Source of the DNA: Bacillus sp. NP157
Lineage (GTDB): Bacteria > Pseudomonadota > Gammaproteobacteria > Xanthomonadales > Rhodanobacteraceae
DNA: 64,000 nt
NCBI GenBank assembly: GCA_018889975.1
Contig: CP076546.1
Location: 3,658,001-3,722,000, forward strand
Direction: 5' to 3'
Positions 8,265 through 42,055 of this stretch are shown here, in pieces. A program made the position numbers and the translations under genes. Below the pieces are notes generated by a model. That model did not search any database. It saw only the letters and a program-made list of their open reading frames with translations, and was not told the DNA's origin. The first letter of the stretch is position 1; each line of letters begins with the position of its first letter.

Positions 8265-8265
8265 G

Positions 8266-22824: not shown

Positions 22825-22831
22825 GCGGCGC

Positions 22832-26163: not shown

Positions 26164-27776
26164 ACGCGGTGGCCAGCCCAGCCGCAACGGCCGCGCCAGC
26201 GCCGCCTGCCAGCCTGCCGTGGCTGGGCATCGTCGCCGTGCTGGTCGGTGCCGTCGCCACCACCCTCACCTCGCGGCTCACCTCCATCGGGCTGGCCGAC
26301 GTGCGTGGCGCGGTCAGCGCAGGCTTTGACGAGGGGGCATGGATCCCCACGGCGTTCTCGGCGTCGCAGATGTTCATCGGGCCCCTCGCGATCTTCCTCG
26401 GCCGGGCATTCAGCCCGCGCCGCGTGCTGCTGGTGGGTTGCGTCGTCTACGGCCTGGCCGAGCTGCTCATCCCCTTCGCGCCGGACCTGCGTTCGCTGGT
26501 CGTGCTGCAGTGCCTGGCCGGCCTCGGCTCGGGGACGTTCATCCCACTCACCGCATCGTTCATCCTGCTCAGCCTGCCGCGCAACCTCTGGCCATGGGGC
26601 CTGGGGGCGTACGCGATGAACATCATCCTCGGCCTCAACGTCGCCAGTTCGCTCGAAGGCTGGTACGTCGAGCACGCGACATGGCACTGGATCTTCTGGC
26701 AGAACACGCTGGTGGCGATGCCGTTGTTCGTCCTCTACTGGTTCGGCCTGCGGCGTATCCCGATCGACCACGAATACCTGCGTGGCGGCGATTTCCGCGG
26801 CATGCTGGTCGGCGGCATCGCCTTTACCCTGGTCTTCGTCGCGCTGGACCAGGGCGACCGGCTCGACTGGTTCTCGTCGCACCTGGTCATCGGCCTGCTC
26901 GCCGCCGGCTTCATCCTGCTGGGCCTGTTCCTGCTGCATGAAACGACGCTGCCCGCACCCAGCGTGGATTTCGGCCTGTTGATCCGGCGCAATGTGTTCC
27001 TGTGCATCGTGCTGATCACCGCCACGCGCTTCCTGGTGACATCGAGCAACACGCTGGTCGCCAATTTCCTGATCCAGGTACGTGGGCTGCGCCCGCTCGA
27101 CGTCGGCAACGCCTTGCTCTGGGTGGCGCTGCCGCAGCTGGTCATCGCACCGACCGTGGCGTGGTTGCTCAACCGGATCGATGCGCGGTTTGCGATCGGG
27201 GTGGGCTTCGCCGTCGCATCGGCGGGATTCCTGCTTTCCACCGGGATCACCTCGGAGTGGGCGGAGGGCGACTTCCGCTTCGCCCTGCTGCTGCAGGCCA
27301 TTGGCGAAACACTGGAGCTGACAGCGGTGATTTATTTTTTCGCCCACCACGTAGGCCCGGCCGACGGCATCACCTTCGGTGCGCTGATCCAGACCGCGCG
27401 ACTGTTCGGCGGCGAGCTGGGCACCTCGTTGCTGATCATGTTCACGCGCAAGGCCGAGCAATGGCATTCCAACCTGATCGGCCAGCACGTACAGGCCGGC
27501 TCGCCGGAGACGAGTGCGCGCATCGCCGACTATGCCGGCGTGGTCGGTAACCTCAGCCAGGGCGCCGGCACCGCCGAGGCGCGTGGCGCGGGGCTGCTGA
27601 CCGCGGCCGTCCGCGGCCAGGCGTACACGCTGTCGATCCTCGATGGGTTCCTGCTGGCCGCCTGCATCGGCACGGCCGCGGTGCTGGTCGTGCTCTGCCT
27701 GCGCGAGCCGCCCGTGCTCGACAACCCGGCCGCCGTGCCGCCGCTTCCCGACCCGGTCCGCGCCGAGCGGGCGTGA
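26160..27776 (+). CDS. DHA2-family MFS efflux permease (EmrB-like)
   Basis: The 538-residue permease has about 14 membrane helices. An N-terminal Ala/Pro-rich tail is followed by LPWLGIVAVLVGAVATTLTSRL, GFDEGAWIPTAFSASQMFIGPLAIFLGRAFSPRRVLL (DHA2 motif A region) and EHATWHWIFWQNTLVAMPLF, the WHWIFWQN form of the DHA2 motif. A last helix lies near the C-terminus. It uses the proton gradient to push drugs through the HlyD-OMF conduit encoded just upstream. The ATG at 26160 overlaps the OMF stop, so the three genes form one unit. No regulator gene adjoins it. Confidence 0.92.
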   Translation: MNAVASPAATAAPAPPASLPWLGIVAVLVGAVATTLTSRLTSIGLADVRGAVSAGFDEGAWIPTAFSASQMFIGPLAIFLGRAFSPRRVLLVGCVVYGLAELLIPFAPDLRSLVVLQCLAGLGSGTFIPLTASFILLSLPRNLWPWGLGAYAMNIILGLNVASSLEGWYVEHATWHWIFWQNTLVAMPLFVLYWFGLRRIPIDHEYLRGGDFRGMLVGGIAFTLVFVALDQGDRLDWFSSHLVIGLLAAGFILLGLFLLHETTLPAPSVDFGLLIRRNVFLCIVLITATRFLVTSSNTLVANFLIQVRGLRPLDVGNALLWVALPQLVIAPTVAWLLNRIDARFAIGVGFAVASAGFLLSTGITSEWAEGDFRFALLLQAIGETLELTAVIYFFAHHVGPADGITFGALIQTARLFGGELGTSLLIMFTRKAEQWHSNLIGQHVQAGSPETSARIADYAGVVGNLSQGAGTAEARGAGLLTAAVRGQAYTLSILDGFLLAACIGTAAVLVVLCLREPPVLDNPAAVPPLPDPVRAERA

Positions 27777-27876: not shown

Positions 27877-28236
27877 GTGCGTCGTGGGCTGGTTTCACAG
27901 CGGTGGTTGGGATGGATGGCGCTGGTCGCCGTCTGGCTCGCCGTGCTTGCGCCGACGGTCTCGCGCGTCACCGCCTTCGCCTTCCCCGACCTCGGTGCAT
28001 GGTGCGCTCCCGCCGAAGGCCATCCCCATGGCACGGCGATGCAGGGCGACGACGATGCCTGCGGCTACTGCACGCTGTACGCCCAGCTGCCCGGCCTCGC
28101 CGCCAGCTTCCATGTGGGCCACGTGCCCTGGCCCGGCGATGCCCTCGCCTCTCGGCCGGCCGGCGATCGCACCTTCGTCCCGGGCACCACGATCCACGTC
28201 CATCCCCGAGGTCCACCGGTCCTGGCAGACGCCTGA
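27877..28236 (+). CDS. DUF2946-family small membrane/secreted protein
   Basis: The 119-residue protein begins with a hydrophobic helix (LGWMALVAVWLAVLAPTVSRV, about residues 10-30) and has the DUF2946 core DDACGYCTLYAQLP (a Cys-x2-Cys pair) preceded by a GHPHG cluster and followed by HVGHVPWP. The family often lies beside copper-linked TonB receptors, and the next gene here is a TonB-dependent receptor. I chose the GTG at 27877 with AAGGGGA seven bases upstream; the ATG at 27901 region would remove part of the signal. Metal binding by the Cys/His residues is inferred. Confidence 0.78.
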   Translation: MRRGLVSQRWLGWMALVAVWLAVLAPTVSRVTAFAFPDLGAWCAPAEGHPHGTAMQGDDDACGYCTLYAQLPGLAASFHVGHVPWPGDALASRPAGDRTFVPGTTIHVHPRGPPVLADA

Positions 28237-28262
28237 TCGCCCGTCGAATACGACGCAAGACC

Positions 28263-30575
28263 ATGACCTCCGGAATCCTGCCCATGCCTTTCCTTGCCAT
28301 CGAGGGACGCGTGCTCGCGCGCGCCATCGCCTGCACCCTGGCCGCATGCGCGTGCCGCGCGCATGCCGACGACCAGCCGCCGCCGCGCACCACCGACCTG
28401 CGCGAAGTGCGCGTCTCCGCCACCAGCCACGGCACCGCCGTCGACCCGGACATGCCCGCCGCCGTGGAAACGATCACCCCGGCGAAGCTCGCCCGTCTCA
28501 ACATCGTCAATACCGAGGATGCGCTGAAGTACCTGCCAGCCTTCGGCATCCGCAAGCGATTCGTCGGCGACGAAAACGCCACCTTCTCCGTGCGTGGCAC
28601 CAGCAACCAGCAAAGCGCGCGCGGGCTGGTCTACCTCGATGGCCTGCTGCTCTCCAACCTGCTCGGCAACAACTGGGCCAACCCGCCGCGCTGGTCCATG
28701 GCCTTCGCCGACAACCTGGATCGCATCGACGTCGTCTACGGCGCCTATTCCGCGCTCTACCCGGGCAACAGCATTGGCGCCACGGTGCTCATGACCACGC
28801 GGATGCCGGACAAGCTCGAAGCCACGGCCGACGTGCAAGCGTTCACCCAGCACGTGCATACCTACGGCGTGGATCGCGATTACGGTGGCAGCAAGCAGAC
28901 CGCGACCTTGGGCGACCGCCGCGGCAGGTTCGCCTTCCTCATCGGGATCTCGCACCTGCAATCGAATGGGCAGCCGCTGGTCTACGGGGTGCAGAATCGC
29001 TCGGCCACGCCGGGTGTTAACCGGCCCGTGACCGGGGCGATCGGCGATACCGGCACCACCGGCCTGCCGCGAGAGGTGCTGGGCATCAACAGCGAAGGCC
29101 AGGAGGCGACCCGCCAGGACGAGGCGCACGCGCGCTTCACCTATGACTTCACGCCCGAACTCACGGCCGCGGCCACCATCGGTTACTGGAAGCAGGACCT
29201 GGTCCATCGCACCGACACTTTCCTGCGCGACGCCGGCGGTAACCCGATATGGTCCGGCCCCGTCAGCATCGAAGGTCGCCAGTACACCTTGCCCGCCAAC
29301 TTCTTCGCACCCAGCAGCCGACAGAGCCGCAACTATCTCTACGGCCTTTCGCTCGGCACGCATCGCGCCAGCGGATGGAACGTCGAAGGCAATGTGTCGT
29401 ACTTCGACATGGACAGGAACCGCGACCGCACCGCCAACGCGGTGAGCTACGACGGCCCCGGCCTGCTTACCGCAGGCGACGGCAGCCGCTGGCGCACGTT
29501 CGACCTGCGCGCCAGCCACACGCCCGAGGTGACGGCGGCCGGTACGCATGCGCTCAGCCTTGGCTACCACTACGACGGCTACCGCCTCGATAACGCGTCC
29601 TACGCGCTGGCGGGATGGCGTAACGGCGACGCCGGCGCGCTCACGGCGGCCAATGGCGGCAGCACCCAGACCCAGGCCGTGTACGTGCAGGATGCGTGGC
29701 AGCTCGACGACCGCTGGCGGTTGACCACGGGCGCGCGTTACGAGCAGTGGCGTGCGTTCAATGGCTCGCGCGCGACGGCGACGGCCACCACCGGTTACGC
29801 CGAGCGCGAGGAAACCCACACGTCGCCGAAAGCGTCGCTGTCCTACGCCGCGTCGGATTCACTGCTGCTGCGCCTGTCCGCGGCGCGAGCCTACCGGTTC
29901 CCGACCGTCAACGAACTGTTCCAGGGCACCTTCAACGGGATCAGCCTGGTCAACAACGATCCGAACCTGAAACCGGAAAACGACCTCTCGCGCGAGCTCT
30001 CCGCGGAGTGGTATCGGGACAACGGGGTCACCCGGTTCACCGTGTTTCGCAGCGACACGCGCAACACGCTGTTCAGCCAGACCGATACCACCGTGTTCCC
30101 CAACGTGACCAACGTGCAGAACGTCGACCTGGTGCGCACGCGCGGCGCGGAGGCCAGTTATGACGGCGCGGGCGTTTTCTCGCCCTGGCTCGACCTGTCG
30201 GCCAACCTCGCCTACACGCAGGCGACGACGGTGCATAACCATCGCAACCCGTCGTCCGAGGGCAAGCAGTTCTACCGGATCCCGCGCTGGCGGACGAACG
30301 TCGTCGCTACCGCGCACGCCAGCGACCGGCTCGCCTTCACGCTCGCCGGTCGCTACTCGGGCCGCCAGTACAACACCCTCGACCACAGCGACATCGATCC
30401 GGATACCTTCGGCGGTGCGAGCGACTTCGTGGTGTTCGATGCAAAGGTGGGCTGGGAATGGAACGAGCACGTCACGCTGAGCGTCGGCGTCGACAACCTC
30501 ACCAATCGCCGCTACTACGTGTACTACCCCTATCCCTCGCGCACGTGGCTGGCCGAGGCGAAGTTCCGGCTATAG
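28263..30575 (+). CDS. TonB-dependent outer-membrane receptor
   Basis: The 770-residue receptor has a signal region (ARAIACTLAACACRAHA), then the plug domain with DLREVRVSATS, VNTEDALKYLPAFGIRKR and FSVRGTSNQQSARGLVYLDG, and a 22-strand barrel. The C-terminus NLTNRRYYVYYPYPSRTWLAEAKFRL ends in Phe-x-Leu, as OMPs do. The DUF2946 gene 26 bp before it suggests a metal, perhaps copper, as ligand, but the plug does not clearly match OprC, so the substrate is open. Starts at 28263 or 28284 are both possible. It ends 3 bp before the convergent lanKC gene. Confidence 0.9.
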   Translation: MTSGILPMPFLAIEGRVLARAIACTLAACACRAHADDQPPPRTTDLREVRVSATSHGTAVDPDMPAAVETITPAKLARLNIVNTEDALKYLPAFGIRKRFVGDENATFSVRGTSNQQSARGLVYLDGLLLSNLLGNNWANPPRWSMAFADNLDRIDVVYGAYSALYPGNSIGATVLMTTRMPDKLEATADVQAFTQHVHTYGVDRDYGGSKQTATLGDRRGRFAFLIGISHLQSNGQPLVYGVQNRSATPGVNRPVTGAIGDTGTTGLPREVLGINSEGQEATRQDEAHARFTYDFTPELTAAATIGYWKQDLVHRTDTFLRDAGGNPIWSGPVSIEGRQYTLPANFFAPSSRQSRNYLYGLSLGTHRASGWNVEGNVSYFDMDRNRDRTANAVSYDGPGLLTAGDGSRWRTFDLRASHTPEVTAAGTHALSLGYHYDGYRLDNASYALAGWRNGDAGALTAANGGSTQTQAVYVQDAWQLDDRWRLTTGARYEQWRAFNGSRATATATTGYAEREETHTSPKASLSYAASDSLLLRLSAARAYRFPTVNELFQGTFNGISLVNNDPNLKPENDLSRELSAEWYRDNGVTRFTVFRSDTRNTLFSQTDTTVFPNVTNVQNVDLVRTRGAEASYDGAGVFSPWLDLSANLAYTQATTVHNHRNPSSEGKQFYRIPRWRTNVVATAHASDRLAFTLAGRYSGRQYNTLDHSDIDPDTFGGASDFVVFDAKVGWEWNEHVTLSVGVDNLTNRRYYVYYPYPSRTWLAEAKFRL

Positions 30576-30578
30576 CCA

Positions 30579-33257
30579 CTAGGCCACCGCCACGCAGCGT
30601 CGTTGCGTGGCGGCGGGCAACGCTTCGTCGAGCATGAACGAAGCGCGTCCGCCCTGGGTGAGCCGTTCCAGGAACATGCCGACACCGGCGTTCCCCGTGG
30701 CGAGGTCGCAACTGATCCGGACCAGCTCGGTACCAGGCACGGCCAGGCAGTCGTCGCGGGGCAGCAGGAACAACTCGACGCCGGACGCGACCCGCATCGC
30801 GTGGTCGCGATACAGCGCGGCGCGGTCGGGCAGGAAGGTGGCGAGGTCGAGCAGGGTTTCGCCGATGCCGGCGAGGCCGTCGAACAGGCCGGGGCTGATC
30901 GCATGCCGGCGGAAGAGGTCGCTTTCCGAGGCCAGGATCGCATCGCGGAAACGGGCGTATCCGGACACCGCGTGTACCCGCGCGGCCACGGCGAGGACGC
31001 CCGCCGTGCCCTGGCGCAGGTACGGCAACAGGGTCGGCGCGCCGACATATGCGGGCCACGATGGCGAACCGTGCGGATCGGCGACCGCACGGGACAGGTC
31101 GAAATCGAGAGCGCTGCACGCCGCGTCAAGATAGCGCGCTGCATGCGTAGCCAGGTGCAGGTGCAACAGGAAAAGCGCCACGCCGCTGGCACCCTGCGCG
31201 AGGCCGAGCGGCTGGCGCGCGACATCGGGCCAGCACAGCGTCCCATCGACGGCCATGGCGTTCGCCAACAACCGGTCGCCCGCCAGCGAGGCGGCCAATA
31301 GGAATGCGTCGTCCGCTGTCGCGTGCCAGGCCTTCAGCCGCGCGAGGCCCCAGCCAGCGATGCCTTCGTGCAGGCCGGCGCGCTCCTGCACGGCACCCTC
31401 GAGTGGCGTGGCCTGCAGCAGGGCGCGTGCATGCGCGTCATCGCCCGCGTCGAACAAGGTCCAGGCGATGCCTGCGTCGCCGCCGACCAGGCCCGCTCCA
31501 CGCTCGCGGCTCCTGTCCAGGCCTTCGCAGAGCCACGGCAGCAGGTTCGACGGGGGCTTGCGCTGGCTGCGCAGGTAGGCGTGCAGGATACCGGCCGCGC
31601 CGTGTGCCACGCCGTAGGGATGCGACTCGAAGGCAGGCGGCCCGGCGGGTACATAGCGGTCGTCGCGTGGCTGGCGCGCATGGCGATCGATGTAACCGAA
31701 CAATCGCTCGGCGGTGCCCGTCGACGGCTCCAGCCTGGCACGACGATGCGGCACGGGCTCGGCGTCACGCGGCATGCCATCGATGGCCCGGCGCAGGCCT
31801 GCCATCGCCACCAGGGGATCGGGACGCGCGGAAGGGTCGTCGGCCATCAGGCTTGCCACGGTGTCGGCATACGCCCTCGGGTAACCCATCTCGTCGACGA
31901 AGCGCCGCACGATCCGCGGCATCACAGCCGGATCGAGCGGCAACAGGGCATTGGCCGGCAGGCAGGCGGCGAACAGGTTGGCGCCAAAGGCGTAACGATC
32001 CGCGGCAACGGCCTCCCGATGCGAGCCACGCGACGCCGTCGGGCTCGCGAAGCCGGGCGTCCAGGCATCGGCCACGTGGTCCAGGCCGTCCTCGACCGCG
32101 GTTTCCAGGTCAACCAGCCGCACCTGGCCGGAAGGGTCGACGATGCAATTGTGGAACGAGAGGTCGCCCACCGAGATGCCCGCCGCGTGCACGCGTTGCA
32201 GCGTATGCGCGAACGAGGTGAATACCGTGCACGCCTCATCGAAGTATTCCGCGACATCGGCGCGCGTCGCTCTCGGGCGCAGCCATGGATAGCGCCGGGC
32301 CAGCCAGCCGCGCAAGGTATCGCCTTCGAGCCATTCCTCGGCGAGAAACCGGTGCTCCCACTCGGCGAAGAAGGCGACCGGCCGCGGCGCCACCATGAGC
32401 GGCGCCAGCCGGCCAAGCAGGCGGAATTCCTTGCGCAGGCTGTCGGTAGCCAGCTCCGCGGCGCCGATGCATGGCCGCGCTTCCTTGATCACCACGCGGC
32501 GTCCTTCCAACAGGTCGTCCGCCAGGTACACGCCACCGGCCGCGGAAAAGGCCAGCGCCCTGGTGGGGCGAAAACGCCCGGCACAGAGCAGCGGCGGTTC
32601 ATCCACGACGGGCGTCTGTTCGCCCAGCGGATCGTTGAGCCACGCGGGCACGGCGTAGCGCGGCTGGCGGTCGTCCGGCTGCACCCCGCCATCGGGCCGG
32701 CGCAACAGCCATTCACGGTGCCCGCTCGCGTCGACGCGATAGTCGCTGAGGATGCCGCCGTAGCGATACGACACGATGGCGCAGTCCGGATGCCGGCGAT
32801 CGGTGAGGATGTGCGGCCCGTGGTATCCGGCGAGTGCCGCGGCGAGGTCGTCGAGCACGCGACGGAACACACGCAGGTCTTCCGGGTACACGGTGATGAA
32901 CTTGCCGGAGCCCCCGCGCGACCAGCGCTTGCCGTTGATGGCCGCCAGCAGGCGAAGATCCCCGGCGAATTTGAACGCCACGCCGCTGGCCACGAAGATC
33001 GCGCTGGCGATGGCAAGTACGATCCGGGCACTCGATGCGATCGACGACACGTGGATTTTCCATCCTTGAATGGGCAGGCGTGCCCTGGGTGGCCTGGCAT
33101 GCAGCCACACGCCCGAGCGATGCAGCGCCCAGTCGGCCGGTAGTTGCCGACGCACCACCGACTCGAAATGGCTCGGGTCGATCACGTGGCGAGCGAAGGG
33201 TTCGAAGAATTCACGATCCACTGCGGTATACGGCAACAGTTCCCGGTATCGCTCCAT
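30579..33257 (-). CDS. Class III lanthionine synthetase (LanKC): lyase-kinase-cyclase
   Basis: The 892-residue enzyme has the three domains of class III synthetases. The lyase (about 1-220) shows LPIQGWKIHVSS (61-72), GKFITVYPEDLRVF (118-131) and GPHILTDRRHPD (147-158). The Ser/Thr-type kinase (about 225-500) has a glycine-rich SAAGGVYLADD, VVIK with Lys258, SVGDLSFHN with Asp365 and Asn370, and VDLE with Asp383 in place of DFG. The LanC-like cyclase (about 540-890) has repeated GxxHGxxG-type helices, but no Cys-His pair for zinc, which separates class III from class IV. It would phosphorylate and dehydrate Ser/Thr of the upstream peptide and close thioether rings. The ATG at 33257 has GGAG upstream. 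It is the last gene of a minus-strand run. Confidence 0.92.
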   Translation of the reverse strand: MERYRELLPYTAVDREFFEPFARHVIDPSHFESVVRRQLPADWALHRSGVWLHARPPRARLPIQGWKIHVSSIASSARIVLAIASAIFVASGVAFKFAGDLRLLAAINGKRWSRGGSGKFITVYPEDLRVFRRVLDDLAAALAGYHGPHILTDRRHPDCAIVSYRYGGILSDYRVDASGHREWLLRRPDGGVQPDDRQPRYAVPAWLNDPLGEQTPVVDEPPLLCAGRFRPTRALAFSAAGGVYLADDLLEGRRVVIKEARPCIGAAELATDSLRKEFRLLGRLAPLMVAPRPVAFFAEWEHRFLAEEWLEGDTLRGWLARRYPWLRPRATRADVAEYFDEACTVFTSFAHTLQRVHAAGISVGDLSFHNCIVDPSGQVRLVDLETAVEDGLDHVADAWTPGFASPTASRGSHREAVAADRYAFGANLFAACLPANALLPLDPAVMPRIVRRFVDEMGYPRAYADTVASLMADDPSARPDPLVAMAGLRRAIDGMPRDAEPVPHRRARLEPSTGTAERLFGYIDRHARQPRDDRYVPAGPPAFESHPYGVAHGAAGILHAYLRSQRKPPSNLLPWLCEGLDRSRERGAGLVGGDAGIAWTLFDAGDDAHARALLQATPLEGAVQERAGLHEGIAGWGLARLKAWHATADDAFLLAASLAGDRLLANAMAVDGTLCWPDVARQPLGLAQGASGVALFLLHLHLATHAARYLDAACSALDFDLSRAVADPHGSPSWPAYVGAPTLLPYLRQGTAGVLAVAARVHAVSGYARFRDAILASESDLFRRHAISPGLFDGLAGIGETLLDLATFLPDRAALYRDHAMRVASGVELFLLPRDDCLAVPGTELVRISCDLATGNAGVGMFLERLTQGGRASFMLDEALPAATQRRCVAVA

Positions 33258-33288
33258 GCCCCAGCTCCGTGGACGGTTATGCAGGCCC

Positions 33289-33324
33289 GGTCTCCTCGCC
33301 AACCCGGACGTTGGCCAGGAGACC
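33289..33324 (-). promoter_or_regulatory. Intercistronic stem-loop between precursor gene and lanKC
   Basis: A strong hairpin (arms ggtctcct / aggagacc, extended by gccaa / ttggc after one mismatch) lies in the 118 bases between the peptide stop and the synthetase start. It is not followed by a T-run on the minus strand, so it is not a classical terminator. Lanthipeptide operons often carry such a hairpin after the precursor gene to give more peptide than enzyme; I infer that role. Confidence 0.55.
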
Positions 33325-33375
33325 TTCGCCTCCCTTTGTTTCCACACCGTTAGCGGTGCGCGTGCGCCGCGTGCT

Positions 33376-33510
33376 TCATGCGTCGCCGATATCGGCGAGC
33401 TGGTCGATGCAGCCGGTGTAGCTGGCCGAACTCTGGCTCAGCGTGGTCTCGGTTTCCGGCCCGTGTTGCAGTTCGGGCTGTAGGTTCTGAAGTGCGAGGA
33501 TCGGATGCAT
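33376..33510 (-). CDS. Class III lanthipeptide precursor peptide (labyrinthopeptin-like)
   Basis: A 44-residue peptide starts at the ATG at 33510 with AGGGAGA 8 bases upstream. The leader begins MHPILALQNLQPELQ; its I-L-x-L-Q-x-L motif is the recognition motif of class III leaders such as labyrinthopeptin. The C-terminal half, from about Thr22, is rich in Ser/Thr and has the single Cys34. Ser27, Ser30 and Cys34 form Ser-x2-Ser-x3-Cys, the spacing that yields a labionin in labyrinthopeptins; Ser25, Ser28, Thr22, Thr23 and Thr32 could also be dehydrated. It lies 118 bp before lanKC on the same strand. A longer reading to 33696 has no support. The bridge type (labionin or lanthionine) and cleavage site are predictions. 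Confidence 0.82.
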   Translation of the reverse strand: MHPILALQNLQPELQHGPETETTLSQSSASYTGCIDQLADIGDA

Positions 33511-33568
33511 GGCGGCGTTCTCCCTGAACGGTGGGTGCGCCCCGCGGGAAGTGCGAAGGCGCGTCGCG

Positions 33569-33598
33569 AATCTAGGTTCGCGGCTGCGACGCACACAA
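33569..33598 (-). promoter_or_regulatory. Possible -35/-10 promoter of the precursor gene
   Basis: On the minus strand TTGTGT (33593-33598), 18 bases, then TAGATT (33569-33574) resemble a weak sigma-70 promoter about 60 bases before the peptide ATG. A perfect inverted repeat, cgcgaa-tctagg-ttcgcg (33565-33582), overlaps the -10 and could be an operator. Match quality is modest. Confidence 0.3.
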
Positions 33599-33678
33599 GC
33601 ATGGAAGGCGCCTTCAGTCGCCCCATGTGCGTTGATTTGAGGTTTCCGTGGCCGCGTGCCCGGATTCGGCCGCGACGG

Positions 33679-33696
33679 ATGTCCGGAATCGGACAT
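33679..33696. promoter_or_regulatory. Perfect inverted repeat upstream of the precursor gene
   Basis: ATGTCCG-gaat-CGGACAT is a perfect 7-bp inverted repeat with a 4-bp spacer, in the 192-bp gap between the kinase gene and the peptide gene. The dyad size suits a dimeric Fis-type helix-turn-helix, such as the one in the adjacent response regulator. It lies about 90 bases upstream of the possible -35, an activator-like position. Confidence 0.5.
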
Positions 33697-33702
33697 GGCG
33701 CC

Positions 33703-35055
33703 CTATTTCGTACGCGCCACCCGACCACCCGTGAGGCGCACCGTCGCTATCGCGCCCATGCCATCGGTGCGATCCGCCAGTGCGACTGATCCGCCATGTG
33801 CCTCGACGATGAGCCGCGCCAGCCCCAGGCCGATACCCGAGCCGTCCGGCTTGGTGGTGAAAAACGGGACGAACAGCGAGTCGGAGCTGGGCAGCCCTAC
33901 GCCTTCGTCGACGATGCGCACACATGCCTCGCCGTGTTCGACGCTCCAGTCGATGCGCACGCCCCCGCCAGTGAGCAACGCGGACTCCGCGGCGTTGCGC
34001 AGCAGATTTACGAAAACCTGGCCGAGCTGGTCCTCGTCGCCGTCGATCATCAGCGCCAGCGTGCCGTCAACCTGCACGGGTACTCGCTGTTCCAGCGCGG
34101 ACACGCGCGCCAGCAGGCGATCCAGGCGAAGCGGCTGGACCGCCAGCGGCGGCAGGTGCGCAAGCCGTCCGTAGCCACCGATGAAGCGTGCCAGCGAAGC
34201 CGAGCGCCTTGCGATCGCTTCGAGGCCAATCCGCAATTCGTCCTGCGGCGTGGCGGCGCCGTGCCGTGAGAGCAACCGGCCGAGCGTATCGGCCAGCGAG
34301 CCGATCGGGGTGAGCGAATTATTCAGCTCGTGGCCGAGCACGCGGATCAGTCGTTGCCAGGCCCGGCGCTCTTCCTCACTCAGGGCGGCGCTCAGGTCAT
34401 GCAGCATCACCATCGTGTTGCCACGTCCTTCGCTGTACCAGACCGCGCGACGTACCGCCCAGCGACCGCCCGCGCAGGCGAACCGGTGGGTAAGGATGCT
34501 GCCATCGGGCACGTCCAGCGCTTCGGCGAGGCCCACCTGTGCCGGCGTGCGGCCAACCACGGGCTGCCGCTCCGCGCCGACCAGGCGACGGGCAGCCGGG
34601 TTGATCAGCCGGATCGCACCCGCTTCGTCGACCACGATCACCGGGCTATGCAGGGCGACAAGGGTCTTGCCGAGGAAACGCGAGGCCTCCACCCGCGTAC
34701 GCCGCACGGTGCGCAGTTCATCCGAGAGCTGGTTGACCCCGTCGATCAGGCCCTGCAGGGGATCGTGCCCCGGCCGCACGTGCCCGCGCATGCCGTAGTC
34801 ACCTTCACGCAGGGCTGCGAGCAGGTCGGACACGGTGCGGAGGGAGGAAAGGATCCGACGCCCCCCGATCGCGCCAATGAGCGTCGAACCGGCGAGGCCG
34901 GCCGCGAGCAGGGCGAGTCGATGCGCCAGCGACGCGACCTCACCCAGCGCCAGCATGCTGGCCGCCGCGGCCAGTGGTGCCACGAACCCGGCACTCCACA
35001 GAAGCGCGCCAACGGCCGGAGAATCCGTGGCTCGCCACGACCAGCCTGGGCGCAT
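33703..35055 (-). CDS. Membrane PAS histidine kinase (NtrY-like)
   Basis: The 450-residue kinase has two adjacent membrane helices (about 17-38 and 45-64) with almost no periplasmic loop, so it probably senses the membrane itself or a partner transporter. A PAS domain (about 130-225, LVALHSPVIVVDEAGAIRLIN) precedes the H-box VLGHELNNSLTP with His242, the N-box NLLRNAAESALL and G-boxes DEGVGL and SGIGLGLARLIVEAHGG. The layout is NtrY-like. It starts 13 bp after its response regulator gene. I prefer the ATG at 35055; a GTG at 35064 is possible. Its partner is the next gene upstream. Confidence 0.88.
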   Translation of the reverse strand: MRPGWSWRATDSPAVGALLWSAGFVAPLAAAASMLALGEVASLAHRLALLAAGLAGSTLIGAIGGRRILSSLRTVSDLLAALREGDYGMRGHVRPGHDPLQGLIDGVNQLSDELRTVRRTRVEASRFLGKTLVALHSPVIVVDEAGAIRLINPAARRLVGAERQPVVGRTPAQVGLAEALDVPDGSILTHRFACAGGRWAVRRAVWYSEGRGNTMVMLHDLSAALSEEERRAWQRLIRVLGHELNNSLTPIGSLADTLGRLLSRHGAATPQDELRIGLEAIARRSASLARFIGGYGRLAHLPPLAVQPLRLDRLLARVSALEQRVPVQVDGTLALMIDGDEDQLGQVFVNLLRNAAESALLTGGGVRIDWSVEHGEACVRIVDEGVGLPSSDSLFVPFFTTKPDGSGIGLGLARLIVEAHGGSVALADRTDGMGAIATVRLTGGRVARTK

Positions 35056-35068
35056 GCCCGCCACGGTG

Positions 35069-36442
35069 TCAGTCGACCGGCTCGGCGGTGGCGCGGCCCC
35101 GTTGTTTCTCCAGGCGGCGATACAGCGCTTGCCGCGAGATGCCGAGGGTGTCCGCCGCACGCTGCAGATGGTTTTCGCTGCGTTCCATGGCGTGGCGGAT
35201 CAGCAGTTGCTCGGCCTCGGGCAGGGTCAGGGAGTCCAGCACCAGTGGCGCGTCCATCGCGCGACGCAGGGCCAGTGCGTCGGTATCGATCTCGCTGCCG
35301 GTGTTCGTCAACACGGCACGTTCGATCGCGTGCTCCAGTTCGCGCACGTTGCCTGGCCAGTCATGCGCGCGCAGCGCGCGTTCGGCCGATGGCGAGAACC
35401 GCGGCAGGGCGCGACCGAGCCGCCGGCATTCGCGCAACAGGAAATGGCGTGCCAACGGCATGACGTCTTCACTACGGTCACGCAACGCCGGCAGGCGCAC
35501 CTGCATGGCGTTGAGCCGATACAGCAGGTCGGGACGGAAACGGCTCGCCCGCGTCGCGGCTTCCACATCGGCGTTGCTGGTGGAGATGACGCGCACGTCG
35601 ACGCGACGTGTCTGGCGCGAGCCGGCGCGTTCGAGCTCGCCGTGCTCGAGCACGCGCAACAGCTTGGCCTGGTGCGGCAGGGGAATGCTCGATACTTCTT
35701 CAAGGACCAGGCTGCCCCGGTGGGCAAGTTCGAAACGCCCGGGTGCACCCGCAGCTTCCTCGCCGAACATGTCATCCACGAATCGCGCCTCGGGCAGGCT
35801 ACCCATGTCGGCACGGATCAACGGGAACGCGGCGCGGGACGAGCGCACGTGGACATCCCTGGCCAGCAGCGATTTGCCGGTGCCGTTTTCACCGAGCACC
35901 AGCACGTTCGCGTCGCCTTGCGCGATCCGTTCGACCAGCTCGTTCACCCGTCGCATGGCCGAGGATTCGGTGGCGCATAGTGCACCGGCCACTTCGCGAT
36001 TCAACGCGCTCTCCGCGCGCAGGCGGCGATTTTCTTCGCGCATGCCATGCAGCGCTACCTGGTTGCGCAGGCTGTTGAGAAGGCGCGTGCGATTCCAAGG
36101 CTTCTCGATGAAGTCCTCCGCCCCACGCCGCATCGCCTCCACGGCAAGCTCCACGCTGCCCCACGCGGTGATCACCAGGATCGGCATGTCGGGCGCAAGC
36201 TCGCGCAGGCGACTCACCAGCTGTAGTCCTTCGCGTCCGGAGGTGGTATCCGTGGCGTAGTTGAGATCGACCACGGCGCATGCAATCACCTGGCGCGCGA
36301 CGACGTCGCATGCTGCCTGGGGCGACGCTGCCTCGATGGCGTCCATGCCCTCGCTGCGCACTAGCATGCACAGGGCCAGGCGAATGTCGACGTTGTCGTC
36401 CACGACAAGCACGGGCGGGATGTTCGACGGATGGGTATTCAT
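35069..36442 (-). CDS. NtrC-family response regulator lacking the GAFTGA loop
   Basis: The 457-residue regulator has a receiver (Asp59 in VVDLN; Thr92; Lys114 in FIEKPW), an AAA+ domain (about 155-385) with Walker A GENGTGKS (184-191) and WPGNVRELEHAIERA, and a Fis-type HTH (422-446). Where sigma-54 activators carry ERGAFTGA, this protein reads FGEEAAGAPGRFELA (226-240): the loop that touches sigma-54 is missing. Walker B reads LVLEEV instead of the usual LFLDEI. It therefore probably does not drive sigma-54 and may act on sigma-70 promoters. The ATG at 36442 has AAGGAG 8 bases upstream. It lies 13 bp after the permease gene. Confidence 0.9.
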   Translation of the reverse strand: MNTHPSNIPPVLVVDDNVDIRLALCMLVRSEGMDAIEAASPQAACDVVARQVIACAVVDLNYATDTTSGREGLQLVSRLRELAPDMPILVITAWGSVELAVEAMRRGAEDFIEKPWNRTRLLNSLRNQVALHGMREENRRLRAESALNREVAGALCATESSAMRRVNELVERIAQGDANVLVLGENGTGKSLLARDVHVRSSRAAFPLIRADMGSLPEARFVDDMFGEEAAGAPGRFELAHRGSLVLEEVSSIPLPHQAKLLRVLEHGELERAGSRQTRRVDVRVISTSNADVEAATRASRFRPDLLYRLNAMQVRLPALRDRSEDVMPLARHFLLRECRRLGRALPRFSPSAERALRAHDWPGNVRELEHAIERAVLTNTGSEIDTDALALRRAMDAPLVLDSLTLPEAEQLLIRHAMERSENHLQRAADTLGISRQALYRRLEKQRGRATAEPVD

Positions 36443-36455
36443 CGCGGTCACTCCT

Positions 36456-38852
36456 TCAGTCATGGCGCAGCACCAGTCGAGGGTCGACGGCCGCGCCGCG
36501 TAGTGCGGGAGGCAGGGCCACCGCGCCGGCCAGCAACAGCATGGCCACCGTGGCAATGAGTACCGCCTGCAGGTCGAAGATCCCGCCGTCGCCGAACGTG
36601 CCCGGCAGCCACCGGCGCCAGGCGAAGGCGACGAGCAGGCCAAGCCCAATGCCAGCAGACGAACGTGACAACCCGCTGGCAAGCGACGCTCCCGCAAGAT
36701 CCAGGGGCGTCGCACCGAGCGCGGCGCGTAGCGCAAGGTCACGGCGGCGCGACGCCACCTCGACGCGCTGGGACGAGTAGAGCCCGACCAGCCCCACCCC
36801 GAGTCCCATCACGGCGAAGGCCGCCGATAGCGAGGTGTCCCGCGCGAGGTCGGCCTGTACGCCGTGCCATGCCTCCACCAGCGCGCGCGTTCGATCCATC
36901 GCCATCCACGGCGTCGCGTCACGCACGGCCATGGCGAGGTCTACGCCCGCCAGTGGCCTGCCACCGGTGCGACGCGCGACCAGGAAATAGGAAAGCAATG
37001 GTTGGTAGCTGGCGTACTCGGCGGACGGCAGTTGCGCGAACGGCACGAAGGCAAAGGGCAACGGGTCCCGCCCCGGACCCTCGCTACGCGTATCGGCGAC
37101 TACGCCGACGATGCGCAGGTCGCGGTCGCCCAGGCTGCGCGAGGTTTTGCGCACCAGCGTGCCCACGCCCGCACCGGGCATGGCGGCGAGAAAGGCCTGG
37201 TTGACCACCACGACGGCGGGCGCAGACGCCGTGTCGGCGGCGGCGAGATCGCGCCCTGCGACCAGGCGAAGTCCCAGGGCCGCTCGCGCGCGCGGCGTAT
37301 GCAAGGCGAACCCGACCTCGACCGGGGTGCCGCGTGGCCCGCGAAAGCCGACGACGAAGCGCGTCCCTGCAGGCAACTGGGTGGCTACCCCGGCATCCGC
37401 CACGCGATCGATGCGTTCCGCCCTGTCGGCCAGTGCCTGCATCGTGCTCGTGACTGGATTCTCGCCTGTACCGGGACCGGCATAAGGCCTGAACGGCGCG
37501 TACACCGCGCCCTGTGTGTCGAAACCGGGTGGGACGCCGGCAAGTTTCCAGGCCCGGACCACCTGCACGACGCAGAAAGCCACGAGTACCGTCGCGAGTG
37601 CGAGCTGGAGCTGCACGGTGATGACCCGCATGCGTTGTGCCACGGGCGCTGCAGGCGTGGGGTGGCCTGCGCCCATGTGCTCGCGCAGAAGGGCGTCGCC
37701 GTGCTCGTGCAGGGTTCCCCCGAACTCGGCGGCGAGGGTGGCGGCAGCAGCGACGACGGCTGTCGCGGCATACACATGCCAGCCGATCGCCAGCGGCCCG
37801 GCGTTCACCAGCCAGCGGGCCGGCAGCGTCCCCGTAGCCAGTGATACCCCTCCGCGACCGATCAGGACTCCGGCCACGAACGCGACGATCCCGACCACGG
37901 CGGCGTCCACCGTAGAAGGTGTCCAGGTGTGCCGGGCGCCGCCGCCAAGGACCATGCGCAAGGCCGTTTCACGACCGCGAGCCAGCGCGCGGGCGAGCAT
38001 GAGGTTGGCGAGGTTGGCACATGCGGTGGCCAGCACGAGGGCGGAGCAGCCGAGGAAGAACCATAGGGTCGGTGCGGCGGTCGAGGTCATCGCCGTGTCG
38101 ACAGGGGTTATGCCGAGCCAGTCCACGGCGCCTGCTGGCCGGCCGGCGTCGCGCAGGCCTGCCGCCGCGCTGCGCATGCGCGCCTCCAGCGATGTGGGCG
38201 GCATGCCAGGGGTGAGTCGCGCCACCGCCATATGGTTCGCCATGCGCGCGGATGGCCCCGCAACGGCTTTCATCGGCAACCAGACGTCGACATCGTCAAA
38301 CAGGCGATAGGCCTCCGGCAGGACGCCGGCCACTGGTAACGCATCGCCGTCGACCCGGACGCGGCGGCCGACGATGTCGGGCGCGCCGCCGTACCAGTCC
38401 CTCCACAGGCGCCAGGAAATCAACGCGGCCGGGTGGCCGGCGAGCTCAGTCCTGACGTGGCCTGCGACGGGATGTACGCCGAGCGTCGGCAGGAATCCGG
38501 CATCGATCTGCTGGGTCCGCAGCAACGCCGTCCGCCCCATGGCTTCGACACCCAGGCGTTCCGGAGCCAGTGCGAGACCCCGCGAGAGCACGCCGGGGGG
38601 CAGGCCGACGGCGTCGTAGAGTTGCGTCGAGATGCCGCGCGCGGCCGCGGGGCGCGGCATCTCCCCGTACAGCACCACGTCGGCGTGGTGGTCGAAGGCG
38701 GGTGCGGTGAAACGCAGGGCGTCGAGCATCGCGAACGTGGCGAAGAACGTCGCCACGCCAAGGGCAAGCGTGCCCGCGCCCAGCAGGAGGAACAGCGGCT
38801 TGTGCAGGACACCGCGCAGGAGGCGCATCGATGCTGGCCATCTGCTCCTCAT
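36456..38852 (-). CDS. ABC transporter permease with two FtsX domains (MacB/ADOP-like)
   Basis: The 798-residue permease opens with a helix (FLLLGAGTLALGVATFFATFAML), then a MacB-type periplasmic domain with ADVVLYG, GVHPVAGHVRTELAGHPAALISWRLWRDWYGG, followed by FtsX helices near 260-370, a second helix-periplasmic unit from about 410, and three last helices (AFAVMGLGVGLVGLYSSQRVE...). This ADOP-type duplication occurs in peptide and envelope stress transporters. It overlaps the ATPase stop by 4 bp (ATGA). With the ATPase it likely exports, or gives immunity to, a peptide; the lanthipeptide cluster is the natural candidate. It has no peptidase domain. Confidence 0.88.
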   Translation of the reverse strand: MRSRWPASMRLLRGVLHKPLFLLLGAGTLALGVATFFATFAMLDALRFTAPAFDHHADVVLYGEMPRPAAARGISTQLYDAVGLPPGVLSRGLALAPERLGVEAMGRTALLRTQQIDAGFLPTLGVHPVAGHVRTELAGHPAALISWRLWRDWYGGAPDIVGRRVRVDGDALPVAGVLPEAYRLFDDVDVWLPMKAVAGPSARMANHMAVARLTPGMPPTSLEARMRSAAAGLRDAGRPAGAVDWLGITPVDTAMTSTAAPTLWFFLGCSALVLATACANLANLMLARALARGRETALRMVLGGGARHTWTPSTVDAAVVGIVAFVAGVLIGRGGVSLATGTLPARWLVNAGPLAIGWHVYAATAVVAAAATLAAEFGGTLHEHGDALLREHMGAGHPTPAAPVAQRMRVITVQLQLALATVLVAFCVVQVVRAWKLAGVPPGFDTQGAVYAPFRPYAGPGTGENPVTSTMQALADRAERIDRVADAGVATQLPAGTRFVVGFRGPRGTPVEVGFALHTPRARAALGLRLVAGRDLAAADTASAPAVVVVNQAFLAAMPGAGVGTLVRKTSRSLGDRDLRIVGVVADTRSEGPGRDPLPFAFVPFAQLPSAEYASYQPLLSYFLVARRTGGRPLAGVDLAMAVRDATPWMAMDRTRALVEAWHGVQADLARDTSLSAAFAVMGLGVGLVGLYSSQRVEVASRRRDLALRAALGATPLDLAGASLASGLSRSSAGIGLGLLVAFAWRRWLPGTFGDGGIFDLQAVLIATVAMLLLAGAVALPPALRGAAVDPRLVLRHD

Positions 38853-39613
38853 GGAAACGCCTCCAGCGTACGCGTAGCATCCAGTCCGCTTTCGGCTTCG
38901 CTTTGCAGCTGCCGGTAGGTCGCTTCGTCGACGATTCGCCCGTCCAGCAGCCGTACCGTGCGGTCGACGGCGGCGCCAAAGCGATCGTCGTGCGTGACCA
39001 TGCAGATGGTCGTGCCGGCCGCATGCAGCCGGCTGAGCAGGGCCATGACCTGCTCGCCGTTGCGCAGGTCGAGGTTGCCCGTGGGCTCATCGGCAAGAAG
39101 GATCGCCGGCTTGCCGACCACCGCCCTGGCCACGGCCACGCGCTGTTGCTGGCCGCCGGACAACTGGCCCGGGTAATGACGCATGCGGTGGGCCATGCCG
39201 ACGCTGGCGAGCGCCTCGGCGGCGCGTTCGATGCGCTCGCGGCGGCCGATGCCGGGTCGGAAGGTCAGCGGCAACGCCACGTTTTCGGCGACGGTGAGCT
39301 CGCCGATGAGGTTGAACGCCTGGAAGACGAAGCCGACGTGCGCATTGCGCAGCAGCGCACGCTGGCGCCGACTGGCCTGTTCGACGGGCTCGCCAAGGAA
39401 ATGCATCGCGCCGGCACTGGGCAGGTCGAGCAGGCCCATCAGGGACAGCAGGGTGGTCTTACCGCACCCCGAGGGGCCCGCGATCGCAATGAATTCGCCG
39501 CGGCCCACGCCCAGGTGGATATCGGCCAGCACGTGGTTCTCGATCGCCCCGGCCACGAAGACCTTGGCGACACCGCGCATCTCGATGACGGGAGGGGCCG
39601 TAGGGGAGCGCAT
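38849..39613 (-). CDS. ABC transporter ATPase (MacB/LolD family)
   Basis: The 254-residue ATPase has Walker A GPSGCGKT, Q-loop VFQAFNLIGELT, signature LSGGQQQR, Walker B ILLADEPTGNLD and switch His in MVTHDD. LADEPTGNLD and FNLI are diagnostic of the MacB/LolD/YtrE branch that pairs with FtsX permeases. It is the first gene of the minus-strand run, overlapping the permease start. Upstream (39614-39847) is a divergent gap toward the hybrid kinase; an AT-richer patch at about 39750-39770 may hold promoters, but I see no clear motif. Confidence 0.92.
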   Translation of the reverse strand: MRSPTAPPVIEMRGVAKVFVAGAIENHVLADIHLGVGRGEFIAIAGPSGCGKTTLLSLMGLLDLPSAGAMHFLGEPVEQASRRQRALLRNAHVGFVFQAFNLIGELTVAENVALPLTFRPGIGRRERIERAAEALASVGMAHRMRHYPGQLSGGQQQRVAVARAVVGKPAILLADEPTGNLDLRNGEQVMALLSRLHAAGTTICMVTHDDRFGAAVDRTVRLLDGRIVDEATYRQLQSEAESGLDATRTLEAFP

Positions 39614-39847
39614 GCGTGACCTCGACGCAACGCGACCGGGGAGGTCAGCCTAGCGCCGGATACCGTGCATGTCGTCGATCCGCGAAGGCATGGCGAACGT
39701 CATCGCGATCTTTTGCCGATTCCACACAGCGAAACTGCAAACAGGCGTTTTAATTGAAGAAATTGATCGTCCGGCATGACCACCGCTCGCTGATGCGCCG
39801 CAACGGGTACCATCGCGGCTCCGTCCCGCGTTCCACAGGCTTGCCGC

Positions 39848-42055
39848 ATGAGTGACCCGTTCGATAGCGCCTGGTTTCTTCCCAGCGAAAGCGGCATGGC
39901 GCGGAAGATCCGTGGCTTCGACTGGTCCGCGACCACCCTCGGGCCGATCGACGGATGGGACCGGACCCTGCGCCACGCGCTGGCTACCATCCTCCGCTCG
40001 CCGGCGCCGATGGGCCTGTTCCATGGCGCCGAGGGCGTGCTCCTCTACAACGACGCCTATGTCGAGATCGCCGGAGAACGCCATCCCCGCGTGCTCGGCC
40101 TGCCGGTGCTGGAGGCCTGGCCGGAAGTCGCGGAGTTCAACCGCAACGTCCTCGCCGTGGTCGGCGCGGGTGGCGTGCTGAGCTATCGCGATGTGCAGGT
40201 GACCCTCGATCGCGCCGGTGCGCCCGCAGAGGCGTGGCTGCACCTGGACTTCAGCCCGCTCGCGAATGAACAGGGCGCGGTGGCGGGCGTACTGTTCGTC
40301 ATCCAGGACAGCACCCGACGCATGCAGGCCGAAGAGGCTGCACGCGCCAGCGAGCAGCGCTGGCGCGGCATGGCCGAGCAGATGCAGGTGGCCGAGGCCG
40401 CGCTGGCCCACCAGGCGGCGACGCTGCAGGAACGGGTCACCCAGCGAACGGCCGAGCTGGTCCGCGCGCAGGACGCGTTGCGGCAGAGCCAGAAAATGGA
40501 AGCGATCGGCAACCTCACCGGCGGCGTCGCGCATGACTTCAACAATTTGCTGCAAGTGATTAGTGGCAACCTGCAGCTGCTGGTCGAGGATGTCGACGGC
40601 AACGAACGCGGCGAACGACGGGTGCGCAACGCGATGGCGGGTGTCGCCCGCGGCTCCAAGCTGGCGACGCAGTTGCTGGCGTTCGGCCGGCGCCAGCCGC
40701 TCGCGCCAAAGGTGGTGAACGTGGGCCGCTTCGTGCGCAACATGGACGACCTGCTGCGCCGGACGCTCGGCGAAGGCATCGAAGTGGAAACGGTGATCGC
40801 CGGCGGCCTGTGGAATACGCTGATCGACCCGGCCAACGTGGAAAACGCCCTGCTGAACCTCGCGCTGAATGCGCGCGATGCGATGGACGGCCAGGGCCGG
40901 CTGACCATCGAAGCCGGCAATGCCTACCTCGATGCCAGCTATGTCGACACGCTCGACGACGTGGCTGCGGGCCAATACGTGCTGCTCGCCGTGACCGATA
41001 CCGGCCACGGCATCGACGCGAAGGTGCTGGAAAAGGTGTTCGAGCCGTTCTTCACCACCAAGGCCGAGGGTCGCGGCACCGGGCTGGGCCTGTCCATGGT
41101 CTACGGTTTCGTGAAGCAGTCCGGTGGACATATCAAGCTTTACAGCGAGCCCGGCCACGGCACGACCGTGAAGCTCTACCTGCCGCGGACCACGCAGTCG
41201 GAAGACCTCGTGGTGGAAGTCGATGCGGGCCCGGTCGCCGGCGGCAGCGAAACCATCCTGGTCGCCGAAGACGACGAAGCCGTGCGCGACACGGTGGTCG
41301 CGCTGCTCGCCGGGCTGGGTTATCGCGTGCTCAAGGCCCGCGACGCACAGAGCGCGCTGTCGATCATCGACAGCGGGATCCCGATCGACCTGCTGTTTAC
41401 CGACGTGGTGATGCCCGGCCCGCTGAAGAGCCCGGAGCTCGCGCGCAAGGCACGCGAACGCGTGCCCGGCATCGCCGTGCTGTTCACCTCGGGCTATACG
41501 GAAAACTCCATCGTGCACGGCGGCCGCCTCGACGAAGGCGTCGACCTGCTGAGCAAGCCGTATACGCGCGAAACCCTCGGCCGCAAGCTGCGCCAGCTGC
41601 TGGCCGGCCCCGCGCAGCCGAACCCCGGCACGCGGATGACGCCACAGGCACCGGCCACGCCGACGCCGCCGGCCATCCGCGTGCTGCGCATCCTGGTCGT
41701 GGAAGACGACTGGCTCGTGCGCACCACGGTCGTCGAGATGCTCCAGCTGCGTGGGCACGAGGTGTTCGAAGCCGGCGACGGTATGCGCGCACTGGAAATC
41801 CTCGACGCCGAGACGGTCGACGTACTGGTTACCGATGTCAGCCTGCCCGGGATGAGTGGCGTGGAACTGGTCGCCGCCGTTCGCGTCCGGTTCCCGGGTC
41901 TCGCCGCCGTCTACGCCACCGGCCACGCCGGCGCCGTCGAGGCCGACCCACGCACGCAGGTGCTGGTGAAGCCGTATGGGTCCGACGCGCTGATCGAGGC
42001 ACTCGGCACCCTGTTCCCGCCGCCGCGCACCGCTGGCAGGGGAACGGCCGGCTAA
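39848..42055 (+). CDS. Hybrid histidine kinase with two receiver domains
   Basis: The 735-residue soluble protein starts with a PAS-like domain (about 15-165), a coiled coil (about 168-210), then the H-box AIGNLTGGVAHDFNNLLQVISG, N-box LNLALNARDAMDG and FEPFFTTKAEGRGTGLGLSMVYGFVKQSGG, as in the plant-bacterium group of hybrid kinases. Receiver 1 (about 470-590) has TILVAEDDEAV and TDVVMPGPLKSPELA; receiver 2 (about 610-720) has RILVVEDDWLV and TDVSLPGMSG. Both keep the phospho-Asp. Lacking membrane helices, it senses a cytoplasmic cue. It is divergent from the ABC transporter cluster by 234 bases. Output partner unknown. Confidence 0.9.
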   Translation: MSDPFDSAWFLPSESGMARKIRGFDWSATTLGPIDGWDRTLRHALATILRSPAPMGLFHGAEGVLLYNDAYVEIAGERHPRVLGLPVLEAWPEVAEFNRNVLAVVGAGGVLSYRDVQVTLDRAGAPAEAWLHLDFSPLANEQGAVAGVLFVIQDSTRRMQAEEAARASEQRWRGMAEQMQVAEAALAHQAATLQERVTQRTAELVRAQDALRQSQKMEAIGNLTGGVAHDFNNLLQVISGNLQLLVEDVDGNERGERRVRNAMAGVARGSKLATQLLAFGRRQPLAPKVVNVGRFVRNMDDLLRRTLGEGIEVETVIAGGLWNTLIDPANVENALLNLALNARDAMDGQGRLTIEAGNAYLDASYVDTLDDVAAGQYVLLAVTDTGHGIDAKVLEKVFEPFFTTKAEGRGTGLGLSMVYGFVKQSGGHIKLYSEPGHGTTVKLYLPRTTQSEDLVVEVDAGPVAGGSETILVAEDDEAVRDTVVALLAGLGYRVLKARDAQSALSIIDSGIPIDLLFTDVVMPGPLKSPELARKARERVPGIAVLFTSGYTENSIVHGGRLDEGVDLLSKPYTRETLGRKLRQLLAGPAQPNPGTRMTPQAPATPTPPAIRVLRILVVEDDWLVRTTVVEMLQLRGHEVFEAGDGMRALEILDAETVDVLVTDVSLPGMSGVELVAAVRVRFPGLAAVYATGHAGAVEADPRTQVLVKPYGSDALIEALGTLFPPPRTAGRGTAG

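Follow-up and report, generated by a model that had tools for sequence, protein, structure and literature searches.

How a Gram-negative bacterium might build, export and tolerate a lanthipeptide of its own is the question raised by a six-gene cluster at positions 30,579–39,613 of a 64,000-nucleotide (nt) stretch of contig CP076546.1 from Bacillus sp. NP157, an organism placed by its GTDB lineage in the Rhodanobacteraceae. The whole stretch is referred to here as the window; coordinates are window positions, and all six genes lie on the minus strand. An earlier reading of the sequence alone had described, in one orientation, an ATP-binding cassette (ABC) ATPase, an FtsX-type permease, an NtrC-like regulator, a histidine kinase, a short peptide gene and LanKC, and had taken them to be a complete class III cluster. 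The six genes are present where it placed them, no expected core gene is missing, the synthetase passes the class III model, and a precursor gene stands beside it. With a probability of about two in three, the cluster represents a functional class III lanthipeptide system equipped with a private sensing and efflux module.

The class assignment depends primarily on lanKC (30579..33257), encoding a lanthionine synthetase that joins lyase, kinase and cyclase. Comparison with hidden Markov models of the class III and IV families, the check proposed by the sequence-only reading, gave 694 bits against class III model NF038151 (cut-off 575) and 535.7 bits against the class IV model, under the 650 cut-off of that model, so the proposed class is borne out. 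The Pfam domains RamC_N and LANC_like score above cut-off and Pkinase below it, and the best matches among solved structures are the LanKC structures 8sao, 8sap and 8sam (PDB). In an alignment to ThurKC read by eye, the lyase residues named in the available part of PMC10604976 are retained. The same portion of that source names F770/D771 for the ThurKC-type cyclase, and this F-D pair is likewise retained where other classes hold zinc ligands (ISPGLFDG, as compared with ISGGLFDG of 8sao); the enzyme departs in carrying DLE for DFE and in lacking a Ser at position S726. The most likely translation start is ATG 33257, in view of the opening MERxxxLLxYTAVD shared by most orthologues.

The substrate of this enzyme is predicted to be the product of lanA. 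A small precursor gene had been anticipated correctly: it is the 44-codon open reading frame at 33376..33510, preceded by AGGGA, and the 106-amino-acid (aa) frame at 33376-33696 is an upstream extension of it. The 44-aa precursor, MHPILALQNLQPELQHGPETETTLSQSSASYTGCIDQLADIGDA, carries the LxLQ leader and SxxSxxxC core seen in its orthologues, motifs that are given for class III precursors (LxLQ and Sx2Sx3C) in the accessible text of PMC7268733. Across 18 same-genus loci, the window included, a precursor gene was found in every case, 17 from the leader motif alone and that of L051 by eye with the core motif known beforehand; relatives therefore do not preserve a cluster devoid of its peptide gene, an outcome that the sequence-only reading had counted against itself. 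The leader expression is matched by 17 of the 18 precursors (L039 is off at one position), and the core [ST]xxSxxxC is found in all of them, in its strict form SxxSxxxC in 16; shuffled tails gave 0.8 on average and never more than 5. Cysteine occupies the third place of the ring motif in 11/18 precursors and the seventh in L048, the window precursor having neither. A single ring motif followed by a C-terminal tail characterizes 17/18 precursors, and L051 stops at the Cys. The window precursor reaches 20.8 bits against NF038160 (cut-off 27), and a Stenotrophomonas precursor passes that model with 29.6 bits. By regular expression, an LxLQ-type precursor also lies near 14 of the 16 other LanKC loci of the order, with none at L096 and a downstream one only at L099.

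In a family sample of 197 genomes, a LanKC match at E 1e-60 was obtained in 21, of which 19 exceed the cut-off. LanKC occurs in 18 of the 19 same-genus genomes sampled, in 30/348 genomes of an order sample and in 1/398 of a phylum sample, the single case being the genome of the window itself. The genus is presumably Luteibacter. Because LanKC is so rare in the phylum sample yet near-universal in the genus sample, the peptide probably has a lasting role in the genus. The order ATPase-permease-regulator-kinase-precursor-LanKC is kept in all 17 LanKC-bearing same-genus relatives, which argues that the arrangement is not due to chance; the comparison of gene order suggested from the sequence alone thus yielded full conservation, precursor included. 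In the remaining genome, G047, LanKC and permease are both missing, and the flanking TonB and glucosidase genes lie about 1.1 kilobases (kb) apart, separated by one 276-aa frame in place of the cluster. A rough single-gene tree (TonB) puts G047 within the genus, albeit on a long branch, which suggests that this genome has lost the cluster. The same-genus LanKCs form one clade in two LanKC trees, the first with 11 of 21 outside rows and the second with 12 of 18 own-genus rows plus 16 others. Recent acquisition of the window copy from a foreign source was considered and is not supported, given a GC content of 0.675-0.705 that is similar to the surroundings, the single LanKC clade, and cluster gene distances that correlate with TonB distances (r 0.63-0.82). 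As a separate observation, the same-genus genome G143 contains a second, distant LanKC with its own precursor at C1:2277487-2280111 (L057), where no ABC exporter was found nearby.

The other four genes encode the putative sensing and efflux module. Their coupling by overlap or 13-base-pair (bp) gaps was described accurately: the reading frames of the ATPase (38849..39613) and permease (36456..38852) overlap at 38849-38852, and 13 bp separate both the permease stop at 36456 from the regulator ATG at 36442 and the regulator stop at 35069 from the kinase ATG at 35055. The ATPase is MacB/LolD/DarD-like (ABC_tran, E 1e-31), its best NCBIfam match being DarD of the darobactin exporter at 228.6 bits, below the 375 cut-off. 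An orthologue exists in all 17 LanKC-bearing relatives; that of L041 is partial, with a single frame only from about residue 111 (163 aa, around 15894-16298, minus strand), reflecting a broken gene or an assembly error. The permease shows MacB_PCD and FtsX domains in two stretches each, and its best whole-length model is ADOP TIGR03434 at 333 bits, below the 622 cut-off; both proteins score under the DarD, MacB and ADOP cut-offs. A search of the same genome at E 1e-5 gave no second permease match.

The regulator (35069..36442) combines Response_reg, Sigma54_activat and HTH_8 domains without the GAFTGA loop, which is missing in 18/18 loci; its Luteimonas L030 counterpart carries GAFTDA. Sigma54 control of the cluster was ruled out on this ground, and some NtrC proteins without GAFTGA are reported to work at sigma70 promoters, according to the portion of PMC10274813 at hand. 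In the kinase (33703..35055), HATPase_c and PAS domains are above cut-off and HAMP slightly below, and two transmembrane (TM) segments with a short loop are predicted; by a crude hydropathy method, two segments precede the H-box in 15/18 loci, one in L043 and three in L050 and L053. A related adaptor-ATPase-multi-permease-regulator-kinase cluster without LanKC is located elsewhere in the same genome (L112, 233000-252900).

The permease is the fastest-evolving component. Mean identity over the 18 loci is 38.7% for the permease, 57.1 for the kinase, 60.1 for LanKC, 66.9 for the ATPase, 67.1 for the regulator and 80.6 for TonB. When the window genome is compared with 18 relatives, a paralogous FtsX permease of another cluster shows 71-89% identity in 17 of them; the value is 50% for G186, which seems to lack the orthologue. 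The ratio of nonsynonymous to synonymous substitution rates (dN/dS), determined for seven pairs, lies between 0.05 and 0.43 for all cluster genes, and the permease has the highest value in 7/7 pairs. Beyond TonB distances, precursor distances show partial correlations of 0.68 with LanKC, 0.56 with the regulator, 0.52 with the permease, 0.26 with the kinase and -0.08 with the ATPase, based on 17 of the 18 loci: L051 was left out, L040 was paired with the TonB copy of L072, and the ATPase of L041 entered the identity comparison as its 163-aa fragment. Taken together, the rate and distance pattern of the permease is compatible with ligand recognition.

Conventional export components were also sought around the cluster, in the window and in 17 stretches of 19 kb from the own genus. 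Full-length ABC exporters (match of at least 250 aa) gave matches there to the ATPase gene only, and no match of at least 250 aa to the adaptor proteins of L030 or L104 was obtained. Among the 16 other LanKC loci of the order, counted with L057 (the second LanKC in the same genus) and with L032-L038 left out, 13 have a full-length ABC exporter beside LanKC, the exceptions being L057, L096 and L099.

The two transcription units appear to be controlled separately. Upstream of lanA, a promoter-like site (TTGTGT - 18 bp - TAGATT, 33569..33598, minus strand) belongs to a motif, CTAGATT, that occurs in 13/18 lanA upstream regions against 0.14 expected; with TTG at the -35 position in the anchored set, the lanA promoter appears to be sigma70-like. 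The promoter of the ABC operon differs in sequence: GCGCTAGGCT, to which the -10-like TAGGCT at 39647..39652 (minus strand) belongs, is found in 4/18 upstream regions against 0.05 expected, and the remaining loci differ. Further upstream, T[TC]CGGCA, a consensus picked by eye ahead of counting, is present before the ABC operon in 16/18 regions against 1.3 expected, at -85 to -112, and before lanA in 0/18; the window and L050 lack it, and the corresponding position in the window (39713..39733, minus strand) is a degenerate candidate regulator site. CGGCA alone is less telling, with 18/18 before the ABC operon against 10.4 expected and 5/18 before lanA. In a search of eight genomes allowing at most two mismatches, the site of the ABC operon was recovered in six (five exact, G152 with two mismatches), and G047 gave no match to the pattern. 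The search results thus make the ABC operon itself the probable main target of the regulator.

Between lanA and lanKC, the RNA is predicted to form a hairpin (33289..33324, minus strand) with hexaloop GTCCGG and a stem of 15 positions, 14 of them paired in the window, ending 31 nt before the lanKC ATG. The loop centre of the best hairpin in the gap lies 47-64 nt before the lanKC start in 17/18 loci, although the gaps range over 68-159 nt; in L049 the gap is 40 nt and contains no hairpin. The hexaloop is shared by 11/18 loci (the window, L042, L043, L045, L048 and L050-L055). In ten aligned loci, all 15 pairs vary on both sides and 97.3% of cells are paired, versus 69.6% when shuffled, and shifting the partner strand abolishes the pairing. 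The aligned rows come from the GTCCGG loci without L054, whose hairpin has a bulge, and with L051 cut back to its inner 15 pairs; they were selected for stem and loop, which biases them towards pairing. In an unselected test, the stem length was equalled or bettered by no more than one shuffle in 100 in 15/18 loci, and by 3 in L055, 6 in L045 and 78 in L049. Folding energies stand out in 13/18 gaps (z of -1.88 or lower), not in L039, L041, L044, L046 and L049.

A covariance model of the hairpin was searched for inside and outside the genus. A single match per genome, always before lanKC, was obtained in 11 same-genus genomes, and no match in the eight others (seven LanKC-bearing genomes and G047). 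Outside the genus, 11 matches, all weak, were obtained in ten genomes, and the strongest of them (E 7.1e-4) is about equal to the weakest true one (G161, 7.2e-4). Over 37 sequence sources, the 11 expected places ranked first; of the remaining matches, five fall on these hairpins read from the opposite strand, as their symmetry predicts, and seven weak ones lie elsewhere (E 0.018-0.69). An Rfam scan of 30400-40000 at E up to 1 returned no such family and one irrelevant weak match, and no such RNA element appears among the literature matches listed.

These components can be assembled into a working model. LanKC would bind the LxLQ leader of the 44-aa LanA and phosphorylate and eliminate Ser/Thr residues in TLSQSSASYTGC, and the metal-free cyclase would then close a ring at S-x2-S-x3-C, as lanthionine or labionin, to give a one-ring peptide. 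Transcription of lanA would proceed from its own sigma70-like promoter, and the RNA hairpin about 50 nt before lanKC would set the LanKC:LanA ratio through processing, stability or translation. The ABC ATPase/permease, the kinase and the GAFTGA-less regulator would constitute a separately promoted operon. The peptide would leave across the inner membrane via the ABC ATPase/permease or an unlinked exporter; the permease would meet it on the periplasmic side, the two-TM kinase would read the transporter, and the regulator would raise expression of the ABC/two-component operon, enabling the producer to expel or tolerate its own, presumably bioactive, product. A more specific version is proposed tentatively, at somewhat less than even odds: that this genus-wide system has no dedicated exporter and that its ADOP transporter, together with the two-TM kinase and the sigma54-independent NtrC-like regulator, makes up a private self-sensing module, comparable to BceAB-BceRS but Gram-negative, that coevolves with the peptide. 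In this version lanKC would be controlled by an RNA element that is single-copy in the genomes searched, not in Rfam, and marked by its invariant GUCCGG loop and by covariation throughout the stem.

Alternative roles for the transporter need to be weighed against this proposal. It might be a dedicated DarBCD-like lanthipeptide exporter, with the kinase and regulator only turning export on; it is the only transporter among the six conserved genes, the DarD match of the ATPase, though below cut-off, points in that direction, and a full ABC exporter accompanies LanKC in most other loci of the order. Such a function is nonetheless unlikely in view of an operon without a membrane fusion protein, of the periplasmic substrates on which MacB acts (PMC5985334, as far as the available part goes), and of L030 and G424, where both the ADOP module and a full ABC exporter accompany LanKC. 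It is still less probable that the four-gene block is an independent envelope-stress or peptide-resistance module merely adjoining lanA-lanKC. The differing promoters, the missing upstream element before lanA, the LanKC-free cluster at L112 and the ADOP-like permeases located far from LanKC in G012 would all suit such independence, yet the block is joined to lanA-lanKC in 17/17 relatives, G047 is without both LanKC and permease, permease and regulator distances track those of the precursor, and a related module adjoins LanKC in Luteimonas.

Other readings concern the product and the hairpin. SapB acts as a surface-active morphogen, and the peptide could by analogy be a genus-wide signal or morphogen instead of an antibiotic; its near-universal presence in the genus (18/19 genomes) and the single LanKC clade are consistent with this, but core and permease vary strongly across species, as would fit a species-specific ligand, which makes the idea doubtful. 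A stronger contender, although still short of an even chance, is that an ordinary terminator, attenuating transcription between lanA and lanKC, accounts for the hairpin, which would then not be a specific regulatory RNA. A long GC-rich stem does follow lanA, and T-runs follow the hairpin in L043 and L045; the window and most other loci have no T-run, however, and the invariant hexaloop in 11/18 loci also speaks against a plain terminator, as does the loop centre, which stays 47-64 nt from the lanKC start in 17/18 loci across gaps of varying length.

Several observations weigh against a functional lanthipeptide system with its own sensing and efflux module. The window precursor scores under the NCBIfam cut-offs, which reflects the model library and not class III membership, and no leader peptidase was seen within the cluster. 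No full-length exporter lies near the window cluster, the operon has no adaptor protein gene, and MacB itself does not carry substrates across the inner membrane, as stated in the accessible part of PMC5985334. With respect to permease evolution, dS is near saturation in 6/7 pairs, divergence is distributed along the entire protein, the rapid change could reflect relaxed constraint, and the precursor-distance correlations share a single locus history. The window carries a degenerate upstream element, and the eight-genome search also returned seven weaker scattered matches (one in G000, off-cluster) versus four for the reversed pattern. The GTCCGG loop is missing in 7/18 loci. Furthermore, because the LanKC tree places neither the other ADOP-bearing loci (L030 and L095) nor G424 as sister to the genus clade, the pairing of LanKC with ADOP may have arisen more than once.

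The surroundings of the cluster contain further genes. A TonB-dependent receptor (27903-30575, plus strand) is convergent with lanKC, 4 bp from its end, and adjacent in 16/17 relatives; as a seventh cluster part it was ruled out, being about 320 kb away in G178 and present in G047 without the cluster, so that it is a neighbour and not an obligate part. Genes for a membrane fusion protein (MFP), an outer membrane factor and a major facilitator superfamily (MFS) protein lie in a row at 22760-27776 (plus strand) and resemble an EmrAB-TolC-like pump; they too were rejected as cluster parts, because they accompany the TonB gene, as the MFP and MFS orthologues at L072 show. At 45399-47132 and 48955-50646 (plus strand), TAP-like alpha/beta hydrolases are encoded, possibly aminopeptidases, with several related frames at the same place in some relatives; that they trim the leader is a guess. 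A 2013-aa bacterial alpha-2-macroglobulin (8266-14307, minus strand) is located beside a PBP1C-like transglycosylase/transpeptidase (5895-8324, minus strand). A DUF6229 search of the same genome gave no match, and its controls gave none either.

For the way in which a Gram-negative cell handles its own lanthipeptide, the locus offers a compact and testable case: the permease varies while the ATPase next to it is conserved, the regulator has a single apparent target operon, and the RNA element could adjust the ratio of enzyme to substrate. Comparisons would be possible across seventeen natural variants that differ in core and permease. The sequence-only reading had regarded a Gram-negative class III cluster as a new variety, a view overtaken by published work. 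In the parts of the sources available, antiSMASH class III clusters are listed for 4/5 Luteibacter mycovicinus strains (PMC11165876), eight class III clusters with three precursors for Lysobacter (PMC11451712), and a modified peptide from a refactored Myxococcus fulvus cluster (PMC9576775), with Actinobacteria and Firmicutes supplying most LanKCs and LanLs (PMC7268733). Among the matches listed from the open-access literature, no description of a lanthipeptide combined with an FtsX/two-component arrangement was found, which is weak evidence of novelty.

Labyrinthopeptin and SapB are class III lanthipeptides. Like the characterized clusters of this class (LanKC, ThurKC), the present one has the LanKC domain order, the metal-free cyclase pair, the LxLQ leader and the SxxSxxxC core; unlike them, it has an NtrC-type two-component system and a hairpin in the RNA ahead of lanKC, has no full ABC exporter nearby, and encodes a precursor that falls below NCBIfam cut-offs and, in 17/18 loci, continues past its single ring motif into a C-terminal tail. 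Other loci of the order (Luteimonas L030, Stenotrophomonas L031, G424, G012 and others) share LanKC and mostly an LxLQ-type precursor, but their annotated LanKCs are 30-37% identical, fall outside the genus clade and are mostly accompanied by a full ABC exporter (13/16). Luteimonas L030 comes closest, with ADOP permease, ATPase, regulator and kinase after LanKC, although an exporter and adaptor are found there too. BceAB-BceRS modules, which have an OmpR-type regulator, resemble the present module in an FtsX-type ABC transporter beside a two-TM, short-loop kinase without an adaptor protein, and differ from it in their BceB permease (ten TM segments, one large domain), here replaced by an ADOP/MacB-like one, in the Response_reg, Sigma54_activat and HTH_8 architecture of the regulator here, and in the Gram-negative host. 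MacAB-TolC and darobactin DarBCD share the ATPase and MacB-like permease families, whereas the operon here has no adaptor gene and scores below the family cut-offs. The GAFTGA-less NtrC proteins of Caulobacter and Rhodobacter, as presented in part of PMC10274813, show the same AAA+ loop deletion and sigma70-like promoter; the regulator here, by contrast, appears to act at a single locus. Both the enzyme class and its Gram-negative occurrence are thus already known, and what is new is the exporter-less sensing-type module, the fast-evolving permease and the RNA element.

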